From Deltaproteobacteria bacterium (GTDB lineage: Bacteria > Desulfobacterota > Binatia > HRBIN30 > JACQVA1), in the NCBI GenBank assembly GCA_016210005.1, contig JACQVA010000193.1, positions 1-64,000 of the forward strand: a stretch of DNA of 64,000 nt, read 5' to 3'. Below the pieces are notes generated by a model. That model saw only the letters and a list, made by a program, of their open reading frames with translations. It ran no database searches and had not been told where the DNA came from. Made by a program: the position numbers and the translations under genes. The first letter of the stretch is position 1; each line of letters begins with the position of its first letter. Shown piece by piece: positions 13,809 through 42,504 of the stretch.

Positions 13809-16800
13809 TCACGGCAGACAGCCGGCGAGGGCGCTGTTCACGGCCTGCACTAGCTCGTCCACGGTGACCGCCCCATCGTTACTGCTGTCGAACGGCGGGC
13901 AGTCGTCCAACGCCATGATCCCGAGCGCGATATTCACCCCCCGTACCAGTTCGTCGATGGTGACCTCGCCGTCGTTGGTGCAGTCGCCGACGCAGCCGCT
14001 GCCCGTGGGGATGGTGGGCGTGGGTGTGGGTGTCGGCGACGGCGTCTCACCGGGCGTGTGGATGGCGGTGAGCGTGGCCGTGAACGTCGCGGTGGGCGCG
14101 GGAGTATGCGACCCCGCCGCCGTCTCGGTGGCGGTGGCTGTGGCAGTCGCAGTGGCGGTCGCGCTGGACGTGGCGGCAAGCGTCGGTAAGGCGGTGGGTG
14201 AGCTGGTTGCTGCCGATGTGGCCGTCGCAGTGGCAGTGGCAGTGGGGGTGTCGGCAGCCGTGATCGTCGCCGTCGCACTCGGAGTGCTGGTCGGCGTCGC
14301 GGTAGCGGTGGTGGTGTAGGTATGAGTCGGGGTAGACGTCGCCGTTGCGGTTGGCGTCACTGTTGGTGTGGTGGTGGCAGTCGAGGTCGCGGTGTCGGTC
14401 GCTGTTGCGGTTGGTGTCGCAGTCGGGGTTAGCGAAGGAGTGCTGGTGGCGGTATTCGTAAAGCTTGCGGTTGCTGTCGCCGTCGGTGTGGTGGTCGCGG
14501 TGGCGGTCGGCGTCGCGGTCGGAGTGCTGCTCGGTGTGATGGTGGCAGTCGAGGTCGCGGTGTCGATCACCGTTGCGGTTGGGCTGGCGGTTGGTGTCGC
14601 CGTCGGCGTGGTGGTCGCGGTGTCGGTCGGCGTCGCGGTCGGAGTGCTGCTCGGTGTCGTGGTTGCGGTGGCGGTGAAGGTCTGAGTTGCGGTTGCCGTC
14701 ACTGTTGGTGTGGTCGTGGCAGTCGAGGTCGCGGTGTCGGTCGCTGTTGCCGTTGGGCTGGCCGACGGCGTTGTGGTCGCCGTGGCTGTGTCTGCCGGCG
14801 TCTGACTCGGTGTTGTTGTGGCGGTGAGCGTGGGCGTGGCACTGGCCGAGGCCGTTGTAGTGCTCGTGGCGGTAGTGCTCGGGCTGAAGGTTGGTGTCGA
14901 GGTCGCACTGTGCGTGGGGGTCTGCGTTGACGTCGCGGTAGCGGTCGCGGTCGCCGTGGAAGTAGGTGTTCCAGGCTCGGCCACCGCTGCGAGTGCGGCA
15001 TTGGCGTTGACCCGCCCGTAGCCGTAATACTGATTGAAGCCGCCGCCGTAGCTCACGCCACCGATCTTGTCGGCGGTATTGCGGATGGCGGTGCGGATCT
15101 GGGCGGCGGTGAGGCCGGCGTTCTTGGACAGCAACAGTCCGGCGATGCCCGCCGCCAGCGGCGTGGCGGACGAGGTACCGCCGAAGCTCGCGGTGTAGTC
15201 GCCGGCGGCGCCGACGCTGGCGTTGTAGCCGAAGACGCCGGTGCGGTCGGTGGTGGTAATGCCCGCAAAGCCGCCGTTGCTGGGAGCGACGAAATCGAGC
15301 GGGCTGCCGTACTGGCTGTAATTCGAGCGATAGTCCCAATCCGTGCTGGCGCCAACTGCGATCGTGCTCGAGAGATTGGCCGGATAGCCCACGGCGCTTT
15401 CCGTCTCCGGGACACCGCTGGCCCCGAAGTATGGACCACTGAAGCTGGAGCCGCCATTGTTAGAGACGAATACGTCGAGCTTGTCCCAATTGGCTTCACT
15501 CGACACCCAGGCGTAGAAGATCATATCGCCTGAGCCCGAGACCGTGACGGTACGCGAGCGCAAGGTTGTCGTTTGACTGTTGCCGATCGTACCGGCCTTG
15601 GCCTGGTAGCGCCCGGTACCGTAGGCATGGCTCGGGTCGTCGACCACACTCCAAGGCGCCGCACCGGAACTGCTCCACCCGCCGGGCAAACCCGGCGTGT
15701 CGAAGCGTTCGATGGCGCCATCGGGGAGCACCACCGTTGACAGCCAGACCGTGTCGTCGCCCGAACTGACGGAAGCATCCTTGGTGTAGCGCCACTCGAT
15801 GATCCAGCTACCCGCGGGAAACCCGGTCAGCACAAAGCCCTGGTATCCGGAAGCGCCGTTGCCGGAAGCGACGAAGGCCGCAGCGCCCAAGCCGCCGCGG
15901 CCACTGCTGCTGGCCCAGTCGAATGCGGTCGTCAGCGTCGAGTCGGGCGAGCCGCCACCCCAGCTGTTGTTCAGCACATCGGCGCCGCGCCAGCTACCCA
16001 GGCCATCAGCGGTGCGACCGGCGGCGTAGTAGACCGCTGAGGCAATGGCGGCGGAGCTGGCAAAGCCACCGCCATCACCAACAGTGTCCTTCGCGATCTT
16101 GAGCGGCAGGATCTTGCAGCCTTGGCACACGCCGGTGACGCCGAGGGCGTTGCTGCCCACCGCTGCGCTCACGCCCGCTACAGCCGTGCCGTGGTCGTCG
16201 TAGATAGTTGCCGGGTTGGGGTCGTTATCGCCGTCGGCGAAGTCCCAGCCGCTGCGGTCATCGACCCACCCGTTGCCGTCGTCGTCGATCAAGTTACCGG
16301 CCACCTCACCGCTGTTGACAAACATGTTCGCGGCCAGATCTGGGTGAGCGGTTTGCACCCCGTTATCAAGCACGGCGATCACCACCGCGCTGCTGCCGCT
16401 CGTCGTGGTCCAGGCCTCTGGCACGTCGGCGTCGGCATCGCTCAAGGCGCCGGTTTGTCCGCTGTTGTGCAGGTGCCACTGATCGCCGTAGAGTGGATCG
16501 TTAGTGGTGACGCGAAAGTCGTGAAAGAAGTTGGGCGAAGCCCACCACACCCCGGGCGCGTCGTGCAGGCGGTTGGCGGTCTCGATCGCCGCCACGCCGC
16601 CTTGTGCCAGGGTCGCTACGTACTGGTCCGGCGTACCCGGCAAGCGTCGGTAGCCGACGAAGTCGGGCGTGAAGAAGGCGTCCGGATTGCTACCCGGTGC
16701 CAGCGCCACCACGATCTCGTCCGTGACCCACAGGCGCGCTCCCACCCGGGCGTTGAAGAAGACGGGCCCACTCCAAGCCACCCCGGCGGCCGACGCCGCA

Positions 16801-30783: not shown

Positions 30784-31005
30784 GTGACGCTGCTTGATCT
30801 GCTTAAACTGGAGTGGACCTTCTTCGGGCTGAAGGCCCCGCGCTTCGCGTGGGCCGGTGGCGGCGGTTTGCTGCTCGTCACGCTGCTTATTCTGGGCTGG
30901 CTGTGGTTCCGAGTGCTGCGCGGGACGCTGAAATCGCGGAGTATGCCGGCCGACTTCCGCGTCGGTTTCCACCTCGCTCGCTTGAAGTTGATACCGGCCC
31001 TGTGA
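30784..31005 (+). CDS. Small putative membrane protein
   Basis: A 73-residue open frame. A GTG start is preceded by GAGGA at six bases. A hydrophobic helix spans about residues 25-44 (GGGGLLLVTLLILGWLWFRVL), preceded by the basic FFGLKAPRFAW. It ends 33 bases before the modification methylase gene, so it may be part of the same operon. I recognise no family. The short length keeps the call tentative. Confidence 0.45.
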   Translation: MTLLDLLKLEWTFFGLKAPRFAWAGGGGLLLVTLLILGWLWFRVLRGTLKSRSMPADFRVGFHLARLKLIPAL

Positions 31006-31038
31006 TTTGAACCGGCCCTGGTTGATCACGGGGGCTCG

Positions 31039-34000
31039 ATGGCCAAGCAGGTGCGCAGAGTTGGTGGCAGCCGCAGGCGCCCGACGCCGACCGCGGCGGG
31101 GGACGGGCCGGTTCGCGAGTACCGCCACGACTCGAAGCGCAAGAACATTCCACCCGCGGGGTTGGCGGCGCAGGGGGTGGTGCGTGAGGCGCCGAAGTTG
31201 CACTTCGGCTACAACCCGCACCTGCCGCCGGTGCTGCGCTTCGATCCGGAGGCGGTGCCGGATCAGTTGCCGGAGCTGCTGGAGGTCGCGCGCACGCGGG
31301 CGCGCACGGCCGAGGAAGCGCGGATGCTCGCCGATGGATTGCGCCACCACGAGCCGTGGCTGGAGTGGGCGGGCAAGCGCGAGAAGAAGGGCTTCGAGGT
31401 CGAGCCGGTCGCCCTCCACATCCACGAGCGCGTCGCCACGCAGGCGATCCTGAGCGTCGCGGCGCGCCAGGACGTGCAGCGCGATTTCTTCGCCGATCCG
31501 CAGCTCGAATACCGCAAGGCGATTCAGTTCTACCAACACGACGTCGACTGGACGAACCGCATGATCCTCGGCGACTCGCTGCAAGTGATGGCCAGCCTCG
31601 CCCGCCGCGAAGACCTCGCCGGCAAGGTCCAGATGATCTACATGGACCCGCCCTACGGCATCAAGTTCGCGTCCAACTTCCAACCCGAGATCGGCAAGCG
31701 CGACGTGAAGGACAAAGCCACCGACCTCACGCGCGAGCCCGAGATGGTGAAGGCGTATCGCGACACGTGGACGCTGGGCGTACATTCCTATCTCTCGTAT
31801 TTGCGCGACCGCATGATTCTGTGCCGGGAGTTACTGGCAGATACGGGCACCATCTTCGTGCAAATCTCGGACGAGAATCTGCACCGCGTCCGCTGCGTGA
31901 TGGACGAAGTGTTCGGGCCCGCGAATCTAGTCTGCCTTATTTCATTCGCAACAAGCGGTGGCCGCGCCGCGGCTCAACTGCCCGTGACTTCGAACTACCT
32001 GCTTTGGTACGCCAGGGACATCTTGATCATGAAATTTCGACGCCTGTTTCAGGGAAAAGACCGGGGAGGAACGGGCTCTGGGGAATTCTCTTGGGTGACC
32101 CTGAAAGACGGACAGTGCAGGAGAACGACCGCAGGAGAAAATGCGGACCTTTCACTGCTTCCGACAGACTTCGAGCTGTGCATCCCAAGCGACCTCACAT
32201 CTTCTCACGAGTACATCCGAGACGAAGTCCCTTATGAGGGGCAGACGTTCCAGCCAGGCAAGAGGTATTGGTCAACCTCCGTGGCAGGCATGCTTCGACT
32301 TGGTAATGCGGGGAGACTGATCGTGCAAGGCCGCACCCTTCGCTTCAAGCGGTTGTTCTCCGATTTCCCGTATAGCGAGTACGACAACACATGGACGGAT
32401 ACCGCGGCGCGTGGTTTCTTTGAGGAGAAGATTTACACGGTACAAACCAGCGCCCGAATCATCGAGCGCTGCATGCTGATGACCACTGACCCCGGAGACC
32501 TCGTCCTTGACCCGACTTGCGGGAGCGGCACAACTGCGCACGTCGCAGAACAATGGGCGAGACGCTGGGTGACGATCGACACCAGCCGGGTGGCACTAGC
32601 ATTGGCGCGCCAGCGGCTGCTGACGGCGCGCTTCGACTACTACAAGTTGCGGCGGATCAACGGCGACGATCTGCGGCGCAACAAAGATGGCCCGTGGCTG
32701 ACGGATAACGCCGGCATCCTCAACGGCCCGTGCACGTTCGACTGCAAGACCGTTCCGCACGTCACGCTCAAGAGCATCGCGCAGAACGTTGCGCTCGATG
32801 CAATCTTCAAGCGGCATCAACCGGTCCTCGACGCGAAGTTGCATGCGCTCAACGCCGCGCTGAAGAAGACAACGCCTGAGCTGCGCTCGACGCTGAGCGC
32901 GAAGCTGGCGGCGAAAGAACGGATCGAGGGCCGGCGCGCGGTGAGCGACGCGGATCGCCGCCGCTGGCTGTTGCCGAAGACCGAGTGGCGCGAATGGGAG
33001 GTTCCGTTCGATGTCGACGAGGCGTGGCCGGCGGAGCTGAAGACGGCGCTCGCCGAGTACCGCGCGGCGTGGCGCGCGAAGATGGACGAGGTGAACGCCT
33101 GCATCGCCGCCAACGCCGAGCAGGAGGAGTTGGTCGATCAGCCGCAGATCGAGCGCGGCGTCGTGCGCGTCGCCGGTCCGTTCACGATGGAAGCCGTGAT
33201 GCCGGCCGAGGAGTCGCTCGACGAGCCGACTCCCATCGGCGGCGAACCGGAAGTGCTGCAGACGTTCGGAGCGGCTGACTCCGGCGGCGCGGCACCCGCC
33301 AACGAACCGGCGAACGCCGAAGCGTACCTCGACAAGATGTTACGCCTACTGCGCGCCGACGGCGTGCGCTTCCCGAACAACAAGGTTGCCAAGTTCAGCC
33401 GCCTCGAACCGTTTCAGGGCGAGTTCCTGCACGGCGAAGGCGACTGGAGCGCAGGAAACGGCGAGCGTCGTGTGGCGGTGTCGATCGGCCCGCAGTTCGG
33501 GCCGGTGACCGCCTACCAGGTCGAGAACGCGTTGCGGCAAGCACACCGCCGCGGCTTCGATGACCTCGTCTTCGCCGGCTTCAGCTTCGACGGCTCGGCG
33601 CAGGGCGCGATCCAAGACGATCCGGATCTGAAGGTGCGCTGTCACCTCGCGCACATCCGCCCCGACGTGAACATGGGCGATCTGCTCAAGGAGACGCCGA
33701 ACAGCCAGCTCTTCACCGTCTTCGGCATGCCGCGCACCGATTTGCGCAAGCTGAAGGACGGCATGTTCGAAATCGAGATGCAGGGCGTCGACATCTACAA
33801 CCCGGTGGAGAACACGCTGCTGCCCACCAATGCCGACAAGGTCGCCGCGTGGTTCCTCGACACCGACTACGACGGGCGCACGTTCTGCATCACGCAGGCG
33901 TTCTTCCCCGACAAGAGCGCCTGGGACAAGCTGGCGCGTGCGCTCAAAGGCGTCATCGATGAAGAGCGTTTCGCCGCGCTCAGCGGGACGGTATCGCTGC

Positions 34001-34122
34001 CATTCCCGGCCGGCGAGCATCGGCGCGTCGCGGTAAAGGTGATCGACCCGCGCGGCAACGAAGTGATGCGCGTGCATCGGCTGCCGGGCGGAAAGGGAGA
34101 GGCGCGCTATGTGGGGGAGTGA
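31039..34122 (+). CDS. mod: Type III restriction-modification DNA methyltransferase (Mod)
   Basis: A 1027-residue beta-class DNA methyltransferase: the catalytic DPPY motif (203-206) comes before the target-recognition part, and the S-adenosylmethionine-binding motif DPTCGSGTT (491-499) comes after it. An N-terminal RHDSKRKNIPPAGL block and ILGDSLQVM (before DPPY) are typical of type III Mod. Between them, residues about 295-510 are less GC-rich than the flanks and probably form a replaceable recognition domain. C-terminal residues 750-1027 are an extra region of unknown role. It should methylate adenine in a short asymmetric site and direct Res. The ATPase/protease pair and Res follow in the same direction. 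Confidence 0.92.
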   Translation: MAKQVRRVGGSRRRPTPTAAGDGPVREYRHDSKRKNIPPAGLAAQGVVREAPKLHFGYNPHLPPVLRFDPEAVPDQLPELLEVARTRARTAEEARMLADGLRHHEPWLEWAGKREKKGFEVEPVALHIHERVATQAILSVAARQDVQRDFFADPQLEYRKAIQFYQHDVDWTNRMILGDSLQVMASLARREDLAGKVQMIYMDPPYGIKFASNFQPEIGKRDVKDKATDLTREPEMVKAYRDTWTLGVHSYLSYLRDRMILCRELLADTGTIFVQISDENLHRVRCVMDEVFGPANLVCLISFATSGGRAAAQLPVTSNYLLWYARDILIMKFRRLFQGKDRGGTGSGEFSWVTLKDGQCRRTTAGENADLSLLPTDFELCIPSDLTSSHEYIRDEVPYEGQTFQPGKRYWSTSVAGMLRLGNAGRLIVQGRTLRFKRLFSDFPYSEYDNTWTDTAARGFFEEKIYTVQTSARIIERCMLMTTDPGDLVLDPTCGSGTTAHVAEQWARRWVTIDTSRVALALARQRLLTARFDYYKLRRINGDDLRRNKDGPWLTDNAGILNGPCTFDCKTVPHVTLKSIAQNVALDAIFKRHQPVLDAKLHALNAALKKTTPELRSTLSAKLAAKERIEGRRAVSDADRRRWLLPKTEWREWEVPFDVDEAWPAELKTALAEYRAAWRAKMDEVNACIAANAEQEELVDQPQIERGVVRVAGPFTMEAVMPAEESLDEPTPIGGEPEVLQTFGAADSGGAAPANEPANAEAYLDKMLRLLRADGVRFPNNKVAKFSRLEPFQGEFLHGEGDWSAGNGERRVAVSIGPQFGPVTAYQVENALRQAHRRGFDDLVFAGFSFDGSAQGAIQDDPDLKVRCHLAHIRPDVNMGDLLKETPNSQLFTVFGMPRTDLRKLKDGMFEIEMQGVDIYNPVENTLLPTNADKVAAWFLDTDYDGRTFCITQAFFPDKSAWDKLARALKGVIDEERFAALSGTVSLPFPAGEHRRVAVKVIDPRGNEVMRVHRLPGGKGEARYVGE

Positions 34123-34172
34123 AGCCATGGACGAGAGGGCGCAAGTCGGCTCGGGGCGAGGGGAGGGAACCC

Positions 34173-35168
34173 ATGGCTACCGGTAAGCTCCTTCGCCAGC
34201 TCATCAAATCAGGAGTGGAGGGCAACCTGGAGGGCTTTCGCTCCGCCTCGGAGGAAGTGATCAAAGAAGAGCGGCAGAAACAGCATCATCTGCTCGCCAA
34301 CGATTTGGAGCGGCTCCTGTACGGCCGGCCAAAGCAGATCGGTCACTCGCTCGGGGGTGCGATGGACAAGGTACCCGTCGATCGAGAGCGCAATCTGGCG
34401 CTGATCGACCTCCGTGAACCTGTGCGGCGGCGGGATGATGTCGTGCTCTCGGACGAGACAAGCTCCGCCGTCGAAGAGGTGCTTCAGGAGCAACATCACC
34501 AAGAGCGGCTCGCGAGCTATGGCCTGCGCGCCGCCGATCGCCTGCTGTTCTACGGTCCGCCGGGTTGCGGCAAGACCCTCACGGCCGAGGTGATCGCCTC
34601 TGAGCTGGGGCTGCCCCTCGCAATCGTGCGGGTGGACGCCGTGGTGTCGTCCTATCTCGGCGAGACGGCAGCCAACCTGCGCAAGGTTTTCGATTTCGCG
34701 GCGGCAAGCGCCGCCGTCGTGCTCTTCGATGAGTTCGACGCCCTGGCCAAGGAACGCGCGGACGAAGCGGAACACGGCGAACTACGGCGCGTGGTTAACG
34801 CCGTGCTCCAGATGATGGATGCCTACACCGGCCGTAGCGTGTTGATTGCCGCCACCAACCACGAACGCATGTTGGATGTGGCCGTCTGGCGGCGGTTCGA
34901 AGAGGTGCTGTTGTTCGAGCCGCCAAACCTTGAGCAACTGCGGCGGCTGCTGGCCTTGAAACTGCGTGGGGTACGGCGCGAGTTTGAGGTCGAGGATGCG
35001 GCGGCGACGGCTCTCTTTACCGGCATGGCGCATGCGGATGTGGAGCGGGTGCTCCGCCGGGCTATCAAGGACATGGTGCTGGCGGGGCATGAGTTCCTCA
35101 CGCTGCGGCATCTGGAGACCGCGGCGTGCCGCGAGCGGCCGCGGCAGGCGCGCACCGCAGGGAAGTAA
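34173..35168 (+). CDS. AAA+ ATPase (IetA-like) in a restriction operon
   Basis: A 331-residue AAA+ ATPase. Walker A is GPPGCGKT (128-135) and Walker B is VVLFDEFDAL. Sensor 1 is ATNH, and the arginine-finger region is WRRFEEVL. The N-terminal 100 residues (LLRQLIKSGVEGNLEGFRSASEEVIKEERQKQHH) are helical and may bind the partner. ATG 34173 is chosen because GGGGAGGG precedes it; an upstream in-frame ATG at 34119 overlaps the end of mod. The subtilase gene starts three bases after its stop, so both are translationally coupled. AAA+/S8 pairs are described as IetAS, an anti-phage and plasmid-stability module. Confidence 0.87.
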   Translation: MATGKLLRQLIKSGVEGNLEGFRSASEEVIKEERQKQHHLLANDLERLLYGRPKQIGHSLGGAMDKVPVDRERNLALIDLREPVRRRDDVVLSDETSSAVEEVLQEQHHQERLASYGLRAADRLLFYGPPGCGKTLTAEVIASELGLPLAIVRVDAVVSSYLGETAANLRKVFDFAAASAAVVLFDEFDALAKERADEAEHGELRRVVNAVLQMMDAYTGRSVLIAATNHERMLDVAVWRRFEEVLLFEPPNLEQLRRLLALKLRGVRREFEVEDAAATALFTGMAHADVERVLRRAIKDMVLAGHEFLTLRHLETAACRERPRQARTAGK

Positions 35169-35171
35169 GGC

Positions 35172-37505
35172 GTGCCCGAGACCTACCCCCATTTGCGACT
35201 CCTCCGCGAGCAGCCGGTCAATCCGCGACGGCCTAGGCTGGCGCCCATTCGGGTCGCGCCACCTGAGGACTCCAGGCAATTCGGCGCCAATCTCCAACGA
35301 AGCCTTCAATCGGCTCGTGAGCGCACAGCACAGGATGTCGGCGGATTCGACGACCGGCGACTCATCAAGCTAGAGCTGAGCGCGCCAATCGACCCGGCCG
35401 AGTTCCAGAAGCTCTCACGCGAAATCGAGATCGTCAGCCAGGAGGACCAGGCCGTTGTCCTTGCTTTTGCGACGGATGCGGCGCTTGCGGCGTTCGAGGC
35501 GAGGCTTGCCACGCTCGTCCGTGGTGAGATGCCCACCTATCGCAATCTGTTGTTCGCACTTAAGGGGTTCGATCATTGGACGGAGGACGACCGCACGGGC
35601 TGGGCTTTGAGGCAGGAAGGCTTTCCCGATGCGAGCCTCTTCCTCCTCGATGCCGAACTCTGGCCGGTGTCGCGAGCGACGGGACGCGACCAGAGTTGGC
35701 AGGCCTTCGAGTCATGGATGCGAGAGCAAGGCATCGAAAAGCTGGATGCCGTGAAGCAGGCGGAGCTGGTGTTATACAGGCTCCGGATCAACCGCGACCA
35801 GGCCACGCTGCTGCTGCGCCACCGTGATGTGCGCACAGTTGATCTGCCGCCACGTTACGGTCTGGGGGTTGCCCTGTTGCAAACGGACATCAAACAGCTG
35901 CCGCCCGTTCCCGCACCGGCGGCGAACGCCCCAGGCGTTGTCGTGCTCGACAGCGGTCTGGCGACGGGACATCCGCTACTCGCCCCAGCAGTGGGCGATG
36001 CGCAGAGCTTTGTGGCGGGCTTCGGATCTGATGATCAGCATGGTCATGGCACCCATGTCGCCGGCCTCGCGCTCTATGGCGACATAGAAGGCGCGTTGCG
36101 CACGGGTGCGCTGGCGCCAGCGTTGCGTTTGTTCAGCGGGCGCATCCTCGATGCGGACAATGCCAACGAGTCGAAACTGATCGAAAACCAGGTGGATGAA
36201 GCAGTCCGCTACTTCCACCGCGAGTATGGCTGCCGGGTCTTCAACCTCTCGTACGGAGACCTGCGCAAGCCGTATCTCGGGCAACATGTGCGTGGCCTTG
36301 CGGTGACACTGGACCGACTCGCGCGAGAGATGCGCGTCCTGTTCGTGGTTCCGACCGGGAATTTCGAGGGTACCGACACCGTTCCTGCGGACTGGCGCGA
36401 GGACTACCCGCGCTACCTACTCAGGGACGATGCGAGGCTTCTCGACCCAGCGCCAGCGCTCAACGTCCTGACCGTGGGCAGCATCGCGCGTTGGGACGCG
36501 ACCTTCAACGCCCAGCGGTATCAGGGCGATCCCACGGAACAGCCGATCGCCAGGCACGATCAACCGTCTCCCTTCACGCGTTCAGGACCCTCCGTGAAGA
36601 ATGCGATCAAACCGGATCTCGTCGCTTATGGTGGGAACTGGGCTGTAAACCTGCGGACGGCCAACCGCTGGATGGTGCGGCAGGGGCTGGGTGAGCTATC
36701 AACGTGCAAGGACTTCGCTCTCGGCCGTTTGCTCGCCGAGGAAGCGGGGACGAGCTTCGCTGCGCCGCACGTTGCCCACCTCGCTGCGCGTATCCTCGCT
36801 GAGCACCTCGATGCAGACCACAACCTGCTGCGCGCCCTGCTCGTCGCACACGCGCGCTGGCCCGAGCCATGCGACGGGCTGTTGCCCGACAAGGACGAGC
36901 GCATACGCGTGTGCGGCTACGGCAAGGTGGGGGAATCGGCGCTTGAGCGCTCGACGGAACAGGAAGTAACCCTGATTGCCAACGATACGATTCCCGACCG
37001 CTGCCACCACTTCTATGAGGTGCCATTGCCGGATGCCTTCTTCGAAGGCCGACAACGCAGCCGGGAAATCACGGTTGCGCTGGCGCACAGCCCGGCGGTG
37101 CGCACGACTCGGATGGCATACAAGAGCTGCGATATCGAGTTTCGCCTCGTGTGGGCCGAAGACCTTACCGCCGTCACCCGTATGTTTAACGCAGCTACCT
37201 CGCGAGAGGAGTATCAGCGCATCGCGGAGGCCCACGGGGCACGTGTCGGCTCTCGGAGGCGTGGTGCGGGCACTGTCCAGGCGGATACGTGGACCGTGCG
37301 GCGCGTGACCACTCAACGGCGAGCGCAGCGACTGTTTCTGGTGGTCACGCGCGTTGACGAAAGCTGGGGTCGCGAGTTTACCCTAAGCGAGGAACCGTAC
37401 GCGATCGACGTGGTGCTGCGTGACCGCGAGAACGTCGAGGCGAGGCTGTATGCACAAATCCAGGCACGGTTGCGCGCTCGTGCGCAGGCTCGTGTGCGCG
37501 CCTGA
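35172..37505 (+). CDS. S8 (subtilisin-like) peptidase, IetS-like
   Basis: A 777-residue cytoplasmic subtilase with no signal peptide. The triad is Asp260 (VVVLDSG), His292 (HGHGTHVAG) and Ser528 (GTSFAAP), with NLSYGD as the oxyanion-Asn block. The N-terminal 240 residues and the C-terminal 180 residues are unassigned and may contact the ATPase or a trigger. It starts GTG at 35172, three bases after the AAA+ stop. Lack of export signals and its operon place argue for a role inside the cell, with the ATPase controlling the protease. IetS-type proteases are the closest known relatives I recall. Confidence 0.88.
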   Translation: MPETYPHLRLLREQPVNPRRPRLAPIRVAPPEDSRQFGANLQRSLQSARERTAQDVGGFDDRRLIKLELSAPIDPAEFQKLSREIEIVSQEDQAVVLAFATDAALAAFEARLATLVRGEMPTYRNLLFALKGFDHWTEDDRTGWALRQEGFPDASLFLLDAELWPVSRATGRDQSWQAFESWMREQGIEKLDAVKQAELVLYRLRINRDQATLLLRHRDVRTVDLPPRYGLGVALLQTDIKQLPPVPAPAANAPGVVVLDSGLATGHPLLAPAVGDAQSFVAGFGSDDQHGHGTHVAGLALYGDIEGALRTGALAPALRLFSGRILDADNANESKLIENQVDEAVRYFHREYGCRVFNLSYGDLRKPYLGQHVRGLAVTLDRLAREMRVLFVVPTGNFEGTDTVPADWREDYPRYLLRDDARLLDPAPALNVLTVGSIARWDATFNAQRYQGDPTEQPIARHDQPSPFTRSGPSVKNAIKPDLVAYGGNWAVNLRTANRWMVRQGLGELSTCKDFALGRLLAEEAGTSFAAPHVAHLAARILAEHLDADHNLLRALLVAHARWPEPCDGLLPDKDERIRVCGYGKVGESALERSTEQEVTLIANDTIPDRCHHFYEVPLPDAFFEGRQRSREITVALAHSPAVRTTRMAYKSCDIEFRLVWAEDLTAVTRMFNAATSREEYQRIAEAHGARVGSRRRGAGTVQADTWTVRRVTTQRRAQRLFLVVTRVDESWGREFTLSEEPYAIDVVLRDRENVEARLYAQIQARLRARAQARVRA

Positions 37506-37538
37506 CTACCACCCTGACAGCGAGGAGGGGGTCGGTGC

Positions 37539-37688
37539 ATGACCAAGAAAGCAACGAAGCTGGCCGATCTACGAATAGAGCCGCCGCCGCGCGCGAGGCT
37601 CTCGGCTCAGGAACCGCTGAAGCGGATGCGCGGGTTCGACCCTCGGAAGGACGATTTCGTTGCTGCTGTTCGGGCGCGCAAGGGTTGA
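37539..37688 (+). CDS. Small basic protein in the restriction operon
   Basis: A 49-residue frame preceded by GAGGAGGGG at about nine bases. It encodes a basic protein with MTKKATKLADLRIEPPPRA and a C-terminal helix FDPRKDDFVAAVRARKG. It lies between the protease gene and the zinc-finger gene. The strong ribosome site and codon use similar to its neighbours support it. It resembles small partner proteins of toxin-antitoxin type, but I can assign no family. Confidence 0.5.
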   Translation: MTKKATKLADLRIEPPPRARLSAQEPLKRMRGFDPRKDDFVAAVRARKG

Positions 37689-37752
37689 CGTGTACTCAAC
37701 CTCTAGGGGGCACCCGGCCGAGTGGCTTGAGTTTCGACAACGGAGGTAACCG

Positions 37753-38007
37753 ATGGCTGCGTTCAAGTGCCAGGTCTGCGGTGGCGAAACCGCCAGGAGC
37801 CAGCTCGTCAGCGAAGTGTTGGATGTTGGTGGCCGGCGGGTGCTGGTAGAACACATCCCGGCGGACATCTGCGCCCGTTGCGGAAAACCAGCCTTCTCGC
37901 GCGAGACCACCGAGCGTATCCGGCAACTGGTGCATGGCGCAGGCCGCCCGGCTCGGACAGTCGCGCTCGACGTCTTCAACCTGGCACAAGGCCCCGCGCC
38001 AGCATGA
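37753..38007 (+). CDS. YgiT-type zinc-finger protein
   Basis: An 84-residue protein with a paired CxxC zinc site (Cys6, Cys9 and Cys40, Cys43: CQVC and CARC) as in the N-terminal domain of MqsA/YgiT antitoxins. There is no helix-turn-helix, so only the zinc domain is present. GGAGG lies seven bases before ATG. Its stop overlaps the restriction subunit's start as ATGA, hence translational coupling. Such proteins often accompany small toxins; here the small frame at 37539 is the only candidate partner. Confidence 0.8.
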   Translation: MAAFKCQVCGGETARSQLVSEVLDVGGRRVLVEHIPADICARCGKPAFSRETTERIRQLVHGAGRPARTVALDVFNLAQGPAPA

Positions 38008-41000
38008 AGCCGCAACAACAACCGCTTCCGGTTCAACCGGTCAACGAACCGATCATCTGCAATCCGTACGAAGAGCCGACGGCGCACTGGGTGTACTCGA
38101 CGGCGACGGGAGAGGCGCAGCGGATGTCGGGGCGCCGGCCGGCGAGCTATTGGTACAAGACGCAGCGCACTGGCAGCGCGCAACGCGACCTGTTCGCCGA
38201 AGAAGAACGCGATGACTTGCCGCTGGTGAACGCCCTGCGCGAGGACGTGAAGCGCTGGCGGCAGGCCAACTACGAAGGCGCCACGCCGGTGACGAAACAG
38301 TTGCTCGCGCACTGGACGCGCGCGGATCGGCCGCGACGCTTGTTCTTCTGCCAGCGCGAAGCGGTGGAGACCTTCGTGTACCTCGCCGAGATTCTCGCCT
38401 CGAGCAAGCGCCCGCGCTGGCGGCCGGCCCTGAGTGTCGAGGACTACCAGCGGCTCTGCGGCAACGAGCGGCCCTCCATCATGACGCATACCGCACTCGG
38501 CGTCTTCCCGAGCTTGGTCGACACGCCGAACGAACCCGGGCTGCCGCGCCTCACGCGTTACGGCTGCAAGATGGCCACCGGTAGCGGCAAGACGGTGGTG
38601 ATGGGCATGTTGGTGGCGTGGGCGTTCTGCAACCGCGGGCGAGTACCCGGCGATGAGCGCTTCCCCTCAGCCGTGCTGGTGGTCTGCCCGAACCTGACGA
38701 TCAAGGAACGCTTGCAGGTGTTGCGGCCGGAGAACGACAACAACTTTTACGCGGCCTTCGACCTCGTGCCGTCGCAGCTGATGCCCGAGATCAAGAAGGG
38801 CAAGGTGCTGGTGACCAACTGGCACCTGTTTGCCCCCGAGTCGCCACACAGCGAAGGCGGCAAGACCTACACGGTGGTAAACAAAGGCGAGGAGAGCCCG
38901 GAAGCCTTTGCGCGCCGGGTGCTGGGCGATCTGTACGAACGCGCGCCGATCATGGTGCTGAACGACGAGGCGCATCATGCGTATCGGCCAGCGCCGGTGG
39001 AAGAGGCCGCCCGGCTGTCGGCCGCCGAGAAGGCGGAGCGCGAAGAAGCCACGGTGTGGATTTCCGGGCTCGACCGGATCAACCGCGCATGCGGGATCAA
39101 ATTCTGCGCCGACCTGTCGGCCACGCCGTTCTACATCCAGGGAAGCGGCTACATCGAAGGCTCGCCCTTTCCGTGGGTGGTGAGCGACTTTGGTTTGGTC
39201 GATGCGATCGAGTCGGGCATCGTGAAAATCCCGCGCTTGCCCGTCAGCGACACGACCGGCCGCCCCGAGCCGAAGTATTTCCGCTTGTGGGAGACGATCA
39301 ACAAGGGGCTCGAACCGGGGGAGCGGCTACCCGGCGGCAAGCCGAAGCCCGAGGTCGTCTGGCGTGACGCGGAGGACGCGCTCATCACGCTCGCCAGCCA
39401 GTGGAAGGAGCGCTTCGAGTACATCCGCGACGCCGCGCCCGAGCAGGAGCACACGCCGCCCGTGCTGATCATCGTGTGTGACAACACCGACATCGCCGAG
39501 CTCTTCTACCGCAACATCTCGGGCGAAGAGAGCGTTGAGGTCATCAACGACGATGACGAAGAAGACGAGGCCACCGCGGCCAACGGCGGCGGTCGTCGCA
39601 AGAAGAAAGCGAAGACCAAAACTGTGTACGGGAACGGCAAGCTGTTCCCGGAGCTATTCTCCAATCGCGAGGGATTCCGCGCGACGCTGCGCATCGACTC
39701 GAAGCTCCTGGCGGAAGCCGAGAGCGAAGATCCGAACGCCAACCGGCGCGAGGCGGCTGAAGCGCTGCGCGAGATCGTCGCGACCGTGGGCAAGGCCGGT
39801 CAACCCGGCGAGCAGGTGCGTTGTGTCGTGTCCGTGCAGATGCTGACCGAGGGGTGGGACGCCAACAACGTCACCCACATCTTGGGTCTGCGGGCGTTCG
39901 GCAGTCAGCTCCTGTGCGAGCAGGTGGTCGGTCGCGGCTTGCGGCGGATGGATTACACGCCCGACCCGCAGACGGGTTTGCTCGCGCCCGAGTACGTCGA
40001 CGTGTACGGGATTCCGTTCTCCATCATCCCGTTCAAGGGCCGCGAGACGAAGAAGCCGGCGCCTGAGGATAAGCCCAAGAATCACGTGCGCGCGCTGGAA
40101 GAGCGCAGGCACTTCGAGATTCGCTTTCCGGTCGTCGAGGGCTACGCGTTTGCGTTGCGGCAAAACCTGATCAAGGCCGACATCGGCGATATGGAGACCC
40201 TCCAGTTGGAGCCAAACCGCAACCCGACCGCGGTGTTCGTGAAGCCGCAGGTCGGCTACCAAGTGGGGCGTCCGTCGGTCGGCGGCGGATTTGAGTTCGT
40301 CGAACAAGATCGCGAAGCGTTCTACGCCAGCACGCACCTGCAGACGATCAAGTTCGAGATCGCGCGCCAGATCGTGTGGGCGCTGAGCGAAGGTGCCGGC
40401 AACGGCAAGCCGAAGCTTCGCCTGCGCTCGCGGCATCAGCTGTTCCCGCAGGTGTTGCGGCTGGTCGACGAGTACGTGACCCGCAAGGTCGATTGGCACG
40501 GCTGCGATGCCCGCGAACTGGGGCTGGAGACGTATGTAAAGCGCATCGTCGAACGACTCATCGACGAGATCGAACCCGACGATGACCAGGGCGAGCCGCC
40601 GCTCCTCCCGATCTTGAATCGCTACAAACCGGTCGGCTCGACGGCGGATGTCGACTTCAAGACGACGCGACGCTGCGATCCAACGAGCAAGAGCCACATC
40701 AACCAAGTCGTGTCGGACACCGCGACGTGGGAGCAGTCCGCCGCGTTCCGATTGGAGCAGTCACGCCACGTGGCGTTCTACGCGCGGAACGATCACTTGG
40801 AGTGCGTGATCCCGTACGAGTATCTGGGAGTCAGTCATGCCTACCTGCCGGACTTTCTTGTGCGGCTCACCAACGGCGTGACGCTGCTGTTGGAGATCAA
40901 GGGCTACGAGGACAACCAAGATCGTGCGAAGCATCAAGCGGCGCGCCGCTGGGTGGCGGCGGTCAACAATTGGGGCTGCGAGGGGCAGTGGAATTTCCAT

Positions 41001-41075
41001 GTGTGCCGCGACCCGCAGATGCTCGGGCGGGAGCTGGAGTACCTCTGCCGCACGCCGGTCCGCGAGCATAAGTGA
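38004..41075 (+). CDS. res: Type III restriction enzyme subunit (Res)
   Basis: A 1023-residue superfamily 2 helicase/nuclease. Walker A is ATGSGKT (KMATGSGKTVVMGML). Motif II is DEAHH (VLNDEAHHAYRP). Motif III is LSATPFY, and motif VI-like residues are QVVGRGLRRMDY. The C-terminal nuclease has AYLPDFLVRL and LLLEIKGYED, the PD-(D/E)XK pattern with Asp and Glu-Ile-Lys. It hydrolyses ATP to translocate or signal along DNA and cuts after Mod recognition. The ATG at 38004 is supported by the four-base overlap with the zinc-finger gene; upstream in-frame codons overlap that gene in another frame and were rejected. All motifs look intact. Confidence 0.93.
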   Translation: MKPQQQPLPVQPVNEPIICNPYEEPTAHWVYSTATGEAQRMSGRRPASYWYKTQRTGSAQRDLFAEEERDDLPLVNALREDVKRWRQANYEGATPVTKQLLAHWTRADRPRRLFFCQREAVETFVYLAEILASSKRPRWRPALSVEDYQRLCGNERPSIMTHTALGVFPSLVDTPNEPGLPRLTRYGCKMATGSGKTVVMGMLVAWAFCNRGRVPGDERFPSAVLVVCPNLTIKERLQVLRPENDNNFYAAFDLVPSQLMPEIKKGKVLVTNWHLFAPESPHSEGGKTYTVVNKGEESPEAFARRVLGDLYERAPIMVLNDEAHHAYRPAPVEEAARLSAAEKAEREEATVWISGLDRINRACGIKFCADLSATPFYIQGSGYIEGSPFPWVVSDFGLVDAIESGIVKIPRLPVSDTTGRPEPKYFRLWETINKGLEPGERLPGGKPKPEVVWRDAEDALITLASQWKERFEYIRDAAPEQEHTPPVLIIVCDNTDIAELFYRNISGEESVEVINDDDEEDEATAANGGGRRKKKAKTKTVYGNGKLFPELFSNREGFRATLRIDSKLLAEAESEDPNANRREAAEALREIVATVGKAGQPGEQVRCVVSVQMLTEGWDANNVTHILGLRAFGSQLLCEQVVGRGLRRMDYTPDPQTGLLAPEYVDVYGIPFSIIPFKGRETKKPAPEDKPKNHVRALEERRHFEIRFPVVEGYAFALRQNLIKADIGDMETLQLEPNRNPTAVFVKPQVGYQVGRPSVGGGFEFVEQDREAFYASTHLQTIKFEIARQIVWALSEGAGNGKPKLRLRSRHQLFPQVLRLVDEYVTRKVDWHGCDARELGLETYVKRIVERLIDEIEPDDDQGEPPLLPILNRYKPVGSTADVDFKTTRRCDPTSKSHINQVVSDTATWEQSAAFRLEQSRHVAFYARNDHLECVIPYEYLGVSHAYLPDFLVRLTNGVTLLLEIKGYEDNQDRAKHQAARRWVAAVNNWGCEGQWNFHVCRDPQMLGRELEYLCRTPVREHK

Positions 41076-41085
41076 CGTCGCAGGC

Positions 41086-41315
41086 GGCGGGCGACGTTGC
41101 GGCCGGTACTGGTGACGAATGGCGACCTCACGCGGGGTGCCCGAAGAGAAGCCAGGACACGCGACATCCAGGTCGTTGACGGCGCCGATCTCTGGAAGTT
41201 ACTCGACGCCACCCCCTGCACCGCGGCTGAAGTGGAAGCCACGGCAGCGCGCCGCCTGGCGAGCATGCGCGACGTGCAGGCGGCCATCGACGCCGCGGCG
41301 GGGAGAGTATCGTGA
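41086..41315 (+). pseudogene. C-terminal remnant of an Mrr-like restriction endonuclease (copy 1)
   Basis: The frame encodes RPVLVTNGDLTRGARREARTRDIQVVDGADLWKLL and a helical tail to TGA at 41315. The N-terminal catalytic part is absent; homology starts just after the res stop. The sequence is close to the second copy at about 42290-42400 and supplies its unshifted frame. The fragment probably has no activity. Confidence 0.65.
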
Positions 41316-41399: not shown

Positions 41400-41705
41400 A
41401 TGGCGAGACGCAGTGGGGTACCTTTACGCACTCAGCGCATTGAGCGCTTGGTTTTCGCTGACGGGTCGTTTCTCGAAGGAACCATCACGCAGTTTGCGCC
41501 GTCCCAGCCCATCGGTTTCGACTACCGCCTGGTCTATCTCGCCAGCGATGGCACCGTGCTGATTCTCTATGACAACCAAGGCGGGCATGCCCCGCACCGG
41601 CACATCAAGGGAACGCGAGAACCGTATCGTTTTGTCGGGATCGATCAGCTCGTTGACGACTTCCTGAACGACGTGGAGGGCATCCGTCGGGAGGACGAAC
41701 CATGA
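41400..41705 (+). CDS. tumE: TumE-family toxin (DUF6516-like)
   Basis: A 101-residue protein. Blocks VFADGSFLEGTITQFA, FDYRLVYLASDGTVLILYDN and HAPHRHIKGTREPYRF match the TumE toxin family, which contains conserved His-rich turns. It overlaps the following regulator gene by four bases (ATGA). Its sits between two nuclease remnants. The molecular target is not known from the sequence. Confidence 0.75.
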   Translation: MARRSGVPLRTQRIERLVFADGSFLEGTITQFAPSQPIGFDYRLVYLASDGTVLILYDNQGGHAPHRHIKGTREPYRFVGIDQLVDDFLNDVEGIRREDEP

Positions 41706-42082
41706 AAGTGCGGAGAGTAGTGATGGGCATTCGCAGCGTTGACGACTGGCGCGCGGCGGTGAAACGCGAGGTGAAACGTGCGGCGGCCGGGCGGCGCGTC
41801 AGAGCGACCGAGTCGCTCACCTTCGAGAACGCCGCGGCGCTGCGCCATTTCTTCTCCGACAAACGCCTGGAGCTGCTGCGCGCGATCCGGGAGCACCGGC
41901 CACGGTCGATCAAGGCTCTGGCTGAGTGCGTCGGCCGGGACTTCAAGAACGTCAGCGCTGAGGTGCACTACCTGTCGCGGCTCGGTTTGGTGGAGCTGGG
42001 CAAGGAAACGGGCGCCGGCACCAAAGGTCGCAGAGCTCCGCGGGTCGCCTGCGACCGGATCGAGCTGCGGATTTCGCTGTAG
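41702..42082 (+). CDS. tumA: TumA-like antitoxin with winged helix-turn-helix (HVO_A0114 type)
   Basis: A 126-residue protein. The helix-turn-helix is readable in PRSIKALAECVGRDFKNVSAEVHYLSRLGLVEL, followed by a basic wing (GAGTKGRRAPRVACDRIELRI). The N-terminal half, with SLTFENAAALRHFFSDKRLELLRAI, is characteristic of HVO_A0114-type antitoxins. It overlaps TumE by four bases; toxin precedes antitoxin here. It probably represses its own operon and neutralises the toxin. Confidence 0.78.
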   Translation: MKVRRVVMGIRSVDDWRAAVKREVKRAAAGRRVRATESLTFENAAALRHFFSDKRLELLRAIREHRPRSIKALAECVGRDFKNVSAEVHYLSRLGLVELGKETGAGTKGRRAPRVACDRIELRISL

Positions 42083-42096
42083 GAGTCAGCAGTGGA

Positions 42097-42504
42097 GCAG
42101 TAATCCGTCTGCGTGTCATCTTGACCCCCCTCAGCGGCGACGACGTCATCGCAATACGCGCGCGCGAGGTCAGACTGATCCAGTGCAAGCACACGCTCTG
42201 GGATGCAAGCGTGGACGCCGACGTGATCGCGGAAGTGATCCATCCCTTCGACCGTTACCGCGCTCGCCGGCTTCGGGCCTTCCACGCGCTGGCGACCTCG
42301 CGGCCGGTACTCGTGACGAACAGAGACCTCACCCGGCGCGGTCGAAGAGAACCAAGGCTCGCGACATCCGGGTTGTTGCCGGAGCCAATCTCTGGAACAG
42401 GCGACCGACGTCGCTCGACGGGGGCCGCACGCAACCCGATCTGGCAGGAACTCCTTCGAGGGAAGGCCCCCCAGCCTGCACGCCAGCGCAAGCTTGCCCG
42501 CTAG
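42097..42504 (+). pseudogene. Frameshifted Mrr-like restriction endonuclease remnant (copy 2)
   Basis: An open frame shows GDDVIAIRAREVRLIQCKHT, the D...QxK core of an Mrr-type PD-(D/E)XK nuclease, then ALATSRPVLVTNRDLTRRGRRE as in copy 1. Compared with copy 1, one base is missing near 42352 (GAAGAGAACCAAGG versus GAAGAGAAGCCAGGA), so the frame shifts and DIRVVAGANLW continues in another frame. The N-terminus is also lacking. It is a decayed gene. Confidence 0.65.

Follow-up and report, generated by a model that had tools for sequence, protein, structure and literature searches.

An IetAS-type ATPase-protease pair as a probable mobile cassette in a type III restriction-modification operon

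In the 64,000-nucleotide stretch of contig JACQVA010000193.1 analysed here (the window), the two subunit genes of a type III restriction-modification (RM) operon are separated by a gene pair of the IetAS type, encoding an AAA+ ATPase and a subtilisin-like S8 protease. The account that we consider probable is that of a BPTD_3080-family type III RM operon with a variable slot occupied by a mobile IetAS cassette of the toxin-antitoxin/anti-phage kind, where the pair would act as a second line of defence and as an addiction module, and IetAS is probably not an obligate subunit of the RM system. The genes are ordered mod, ietA, ietS, a YgiT-type zinc finger gene and res (31039-41075), all on the + strand with intact frames, and these frames, together with the motifs given below, bore out the view of an earlier note on this DNA that Mod and Res are intact and that the genes run in one direction. 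The mod gene (31039..34122) encodes a type III-type DNA methyltransferase subunit of 1027 aa that matches Pfam N6_N4_Mtase and PADLOC MTase_III (PDLC03632, 568 bits) and has the beta-class motifs DPPY at 203 and DPTCGSG at 491. The res gene (38004..41075) encodes a restriction helicase-nuclease of 1023 aa with the helicase motifs ATGSGKT, DEAH, SATP and GRGLRR and a PD...EIKG nuclease motif. With Res scoring 977 bits against NF046055 (cut-off 800) and a beta-class Mod in the same operon, the system belongs to the BPTD_3080 family of type III RM. A PDB search with Mod returned weak relatives, such as EcoP15I Mod, and one with Res gave no significant match. The ietA gene ends at 35168, and its start is placed more likely at the ATG at 34173, 50 bp past the end of mod, than at the GTG at 34119 that opens the longest ORF and would make it overlap mod, since three other IetAS loci are homologous only from 34158-34173 onwards. 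The ietS gene (35172..37505, GTG start, 777 aa) follows three bases later, and the zinc finger gene (37753..38007; YgiT/MqsA-type protein of 84 aa; NCBIfam TIGR03831, 40.4 bits over cut-off) overlaps res by four bases, both spacings being as previously described. Between ietS and the zinc finger gene lies an ORF of 49 aa (37539..37688, + strand), absent from the earlier account of the operon, which had no match in Pfam, PADLOC or NCBIfam. From the gene spacing, a single transcript covering mod, IetAS and res is predicted. A short ORF of ~73 aa with one hydrophobic stretch (30785-31006) immediately precedes mod in the same direction and may be an operon member.

The AAA+ and S8 proteins were matched over nearly their full length by the PADLOC models for IetA (PDLC02196, 342 bits) and IetS (PDLC02198, 911 bits, residues 4-777), which excludes chance resemblance, and since the two genes are adjacent the earlier assignment of the pair to IetAS holds. 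The Walker motifs of IetA (GPPGCGKT and LFDEFD) are intact, and the catalytic triad of IetS is complete, with D260, H292 and S528 found at exactly the residues that had been named. The N-terminus of IetS is without a strongly hydrophobic stretch, which fits an unsecreted protein, again in line with the earlier claim. Given that the scores lie under the NCBIfam equivalog cut-offs (266 bits against 510 for IteA, and 119 against 900 for IteS), the pair represents a divergent subfamily; the PADLOC IetS subfamily model fits the window IetS fully. A PDB search with IetS returned generic subtilisins only, an AlphaFold model of IetS built from four sequences had a mean pLDDT of 35, too low for use, and no match to IetS was found among viral contigs. 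Elsewhere in the window, in an unrelated context, a second S8-domain protein is encoded at 15015-16391 on the - strand, in an open frame of ~1300 aa. The original description of IetAS was that of a toxin-antitoxin pair. In SgiAT toxicity comes from the protease and is neutralised by the ATPase, the same is cited in the SgiAT work for IetAS of pTiC58, and an IetAS-type pair of a mycoplasma has also been tested and comprises a toxic protease and a neutralising ATPase. The window pair agrees with the pairs of pTiC58 and SGI1 in gene content and gene order, and has near-full-length PADLOC matches and intact catalytic motifs, but differs in being nested between mod and res and in its scores under the NCBIfam cut-offs.

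Sequence comparison indicates that the RM backbone and IetAS have separate histories and that IetAS is an exchangeable cassette, since relatives of the RM genes lack IetAS, relatives of IetAS lie outside this RM family, and other cargo occupies about half of 41 related mod/res junctions. The nearest RM relative, G462, is from the same order and has a Res 93% identical to that of the window. By blastn, its backbone is 86-89% identical in DNA to that of the window as far as position 34101, and the alignment resumes at 37828, so that the variable cargo slot spans 34102..37827 (+ strand; comparison with L078); in this slot G462 carries, in place of IetAS, a 409-aa ORF of unrelated sequence together with a small ORF, and its zinc finger is truncated. 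At the same locus (L078:3150-9243) res is intact and mod is without about residues 46-620, an in-frame loss of the methyltransferase domain. In the further relatives G153 (Res 76%) and G047 (58%) the two subunit genes overlap and leave no gap, and IetAS is thus missing from all three nearest RM relatives. The closest IetAS pairs were found in Betaproteobacterial MAGs (IetS 74-77% protein identity). By blastn, three loci without this BPTD_3080-family RM system (L009, L010 and L011) are 73-74% identical in IetAS DNA, and the homologous region, 34158..37505 on the + strand, has bounds that coincide with the two genes ietA and ietS. Of these loci, L011 has IetAS after a DUF4011/MTES_1575 protein, L009 is a short contig, and in L010 the pair is flanked by a UvrD-PDDEXK helicase on one side and by mod and res of a different type III system on the other. 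No repeats that would mark a transposition mechanism were seen at the cassette ends. Lying between the subunit genes of one RM operon, on the same strand, and being absent from related operons, the pair is an RM-embedded cassette. The zinc finger was considered as a conserved RM part and rejected, as among the RM relatives it was found just as the truncated copy in G462; it is conserved with neither the RM genes nor IetAS.

The content of this slot was then compared over 41 BPTD_3080 loci with mod and res on one stretch. When tallied by eye, ~20 of the 41 junctions carry one or more genes in the gap, often toxin-antitoxin or Abi-like. The cargo recognised by Pfam includes HEPN (L081, L099), HicA, PIN, Fic, Gp49 with an HTH protein, DUF1016, AbiEii-type AAA, AAA_14/DUF4143, DUF4276, DUF5131, DUF4062 and Bro-N with 23S_IVP. 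On plasmids, the gap holds DUF3800 in Thermus brockianus (a named plasmid) and UPF0175 with DUF3368 on pAQ5 of Picosynechococcus PCC 7002, and no gene in those of Shinella, Mycobacterium avium and Chondrocystis. The combination of IetAS, the 49-aa ORF and the zinc finger was absent from all 41 relatives examined. In BPTD_3080 operons with res first (L118, L119, L120, L121), the gene after mod, or after mod and its cargo, encodes a UvrD-like helicase of ~650-710 aa. The many toxin-antitoxin genes in the slot, together with the clean bounds of the cassette and the stabilisation of pTiC58 and SGI1 by their IetAS pairs, would suit a pair that is passenger or addiction module only, stabilising the operon or itself from a tolerated, transcribed gap with no further immune role. 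We regard this as rather unlikely, though worth keeping in view, since internal positions are over-represented among co-located loci (see below) and IetAS is classed as anti-phage by both PADLOC and NCBIfam.

To follow IetAS beyond this operon we used surveys of 395 and 148 genomes from the window's own phylum, with plasmids added. The surveys yielded 33 IetS places besides the window, about nine of which are fragments or are cut by contig ends. In G286, whose RM genes belong to another type III family, the order is mod-IetA-IetS-res with joints of -1, 3 and 67 bp. The pair lies between hsdS and hsdR in three type I operons, as hsdM-YhcG-hsdS-IetA-IetS-hsdR in G130 (joints of 5, 3 and 1 bp) and as hsdM-hsdS-IetA-IetS-hsdR in G210 and G197; in G248 the order is hsdM-IetA-IetS-hsdS-helicase-hsdR, and in G204, of the same genus, it is hsdM-YhcG-IetA-IetS-...-hsdR, with larger gaps and hsdS not identified. 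G339 and G496 show res-mod-IetA-IetS-UvrD, and in G497 a res remnant precedes IetAS. The earlier note had asked whether the order mod-AAA-S8-zinc finger-res recurs in other genomes, and recurrence was largely borne out. None of the other genomes surveyed has all five genes, G286 being without the zinc finger; what recurs is mod-IetA-IetS-res in that genome and the nesting of IetAS in type I operons. Ten loci hold both IetAS and RM genes, and random placement of IetAS in their gaps would give 1.8 internal positions, against 6 observed (P about 0.003; 0.006 when G204 is left out); the test was post hoc, devised after the pattern had been seen, and covers ten loci of one phylum. On a 44-row tree of IetA+IetS, RM embedding is not clustered and requires 8 changes, at least 7 of them forced by supported branches, gains being indistinguishable from losses. 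Together, these data show, at the level of gene order and phylogeny, that IetAS has been embedded in type I and type III RM operons repeatedly and independently.

The same data bear on the idea that the genes came together by chance in a defence island or are the product of an assembly join. Defence genes do cluster, and res is closely followed by TumE and HTH genes; even so, this explanation is most improbable, given the recurrence in independent genomes, with several of the recurrences on large contigs, the even GC content over the whole operon (0.63-0.66) and the enrichment over local gaps. The downstream genes, at 41400-42082, encode a TumE-type toxin and, overlapping it, an HVO_A0114-type HTH protein, and form a second toxin-antitoxin-like pair. 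This pair is flanked by a 70-nt direct repeat (80% identical; 41087-41156 and 42288-42357), perhaps an insertion mark.

The earlier note had suggested one composite immune system in which DNA recognition might trigger proteolysis. In an explicit form of this model, Mod or Mod-Res sensing unmodified DNA would directly activate IetS via IetA. The identity of the pair as IetAS stood, and its nesting recurs, with IetAS found repeatedly next to the recognition and restriction subunits of two RM types, or between them, and with tight joints at several loci, G130 among them. However, the RM relatives function without IetAS in the operon, the slot accepts many unrelated cargoes, the zinc finger is not conserved, and IetAS frequently stands alone, its relatives lying elsewhere, so that we hold direct activation to be unlikely. 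None of the 13 plasmid IetAS pairs inspected is inside an RM operon, and RM embedding is therefore not needed for IetAS to persist. On three plasmids (L138, L174 and L175; pTiC58 included) a DUF6088 gene sits just upstream of ietA and is a possible third component. That DNA recognition triggers proteolysis is suggested by gene order, and none of the other analyses lent it support. Similarly doubtful, in our view, is the wider proposal that RM complexes of types I and III have more than once taken up IetAS as a protease effector coupled to them. The recognition subunits would then hold or release it, and intracellular proteolysis would be switched on when DNA is recognised or restriction is inhibited.

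An embedded toxin cassette is the simplest reading, because the tested relatives of IetAS are toxin-antitoxins and because toxin or defence cargo in RM operons has precedents in PrrC, DarTG2, TgvAB and the rlo/mlo genes. The separate parts are already known, and so is the nesting of toxins in RM operons, mostly of type I (PrrC, DarTG2 and rlo genes). The anticodon nuclease PrrC is held by the type IC RM complex EcoprrI and is released when phage T4 counters restriction. It resembles the window pair in that a lethal effector gene lies inside an RM operon, where it is proposed to act as a guard, whereas the window pair consists of a protease and a dedicated ATPase partner in a type III operon, and any contact with the RM proteins would be conjectural. 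DarTG2 of the RRDM island is likewise a toxin-antitoxin of two genes placed between those for recognition and restriction (hsdS and hsdR), but it ADP-ribosylates DNA rather than acting by proteolysis, and its type I host operon has the repressor RptR, which was not found at the window operon. The window operon in turn departs from other BPTD_3080 systems, to which its Mod and Res belong, in having the mod-res gap filled by IetAS, the 49-aa ORF and the zinc finger. In the literature searched, which does not include the 2024 preprint by Payne et al. about embedded defences, we found neither IetAS as cargo, nor the type III mod/res slot, nor repeated insertion.

For the cassette reading we propose that IetA keeps the IetS protease in check, and that infection, anti-restriction or loss of the operon would upset the balance of IetA and IetS and release IetS, which might then arrest the cell through proteolysis. 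By analogy with what is thought of PrrC and DarTG2 in type I operons, IetAS would back up restriction as a second line and also act as an addiction module for the operon, and its repeated nesting in type I and type III operons suggests a back-up kill switch. These findings extend toxin embedding to type III operons, with a protease pair as cargo and with repeated insertion in both RM types. They make it testable that RM operons may be docking sites for back-up kill switches, and that IetAS, until now regarded as a toxin-antitoxin or anti-phage pair acting on its own, may sense the failure of restriction.
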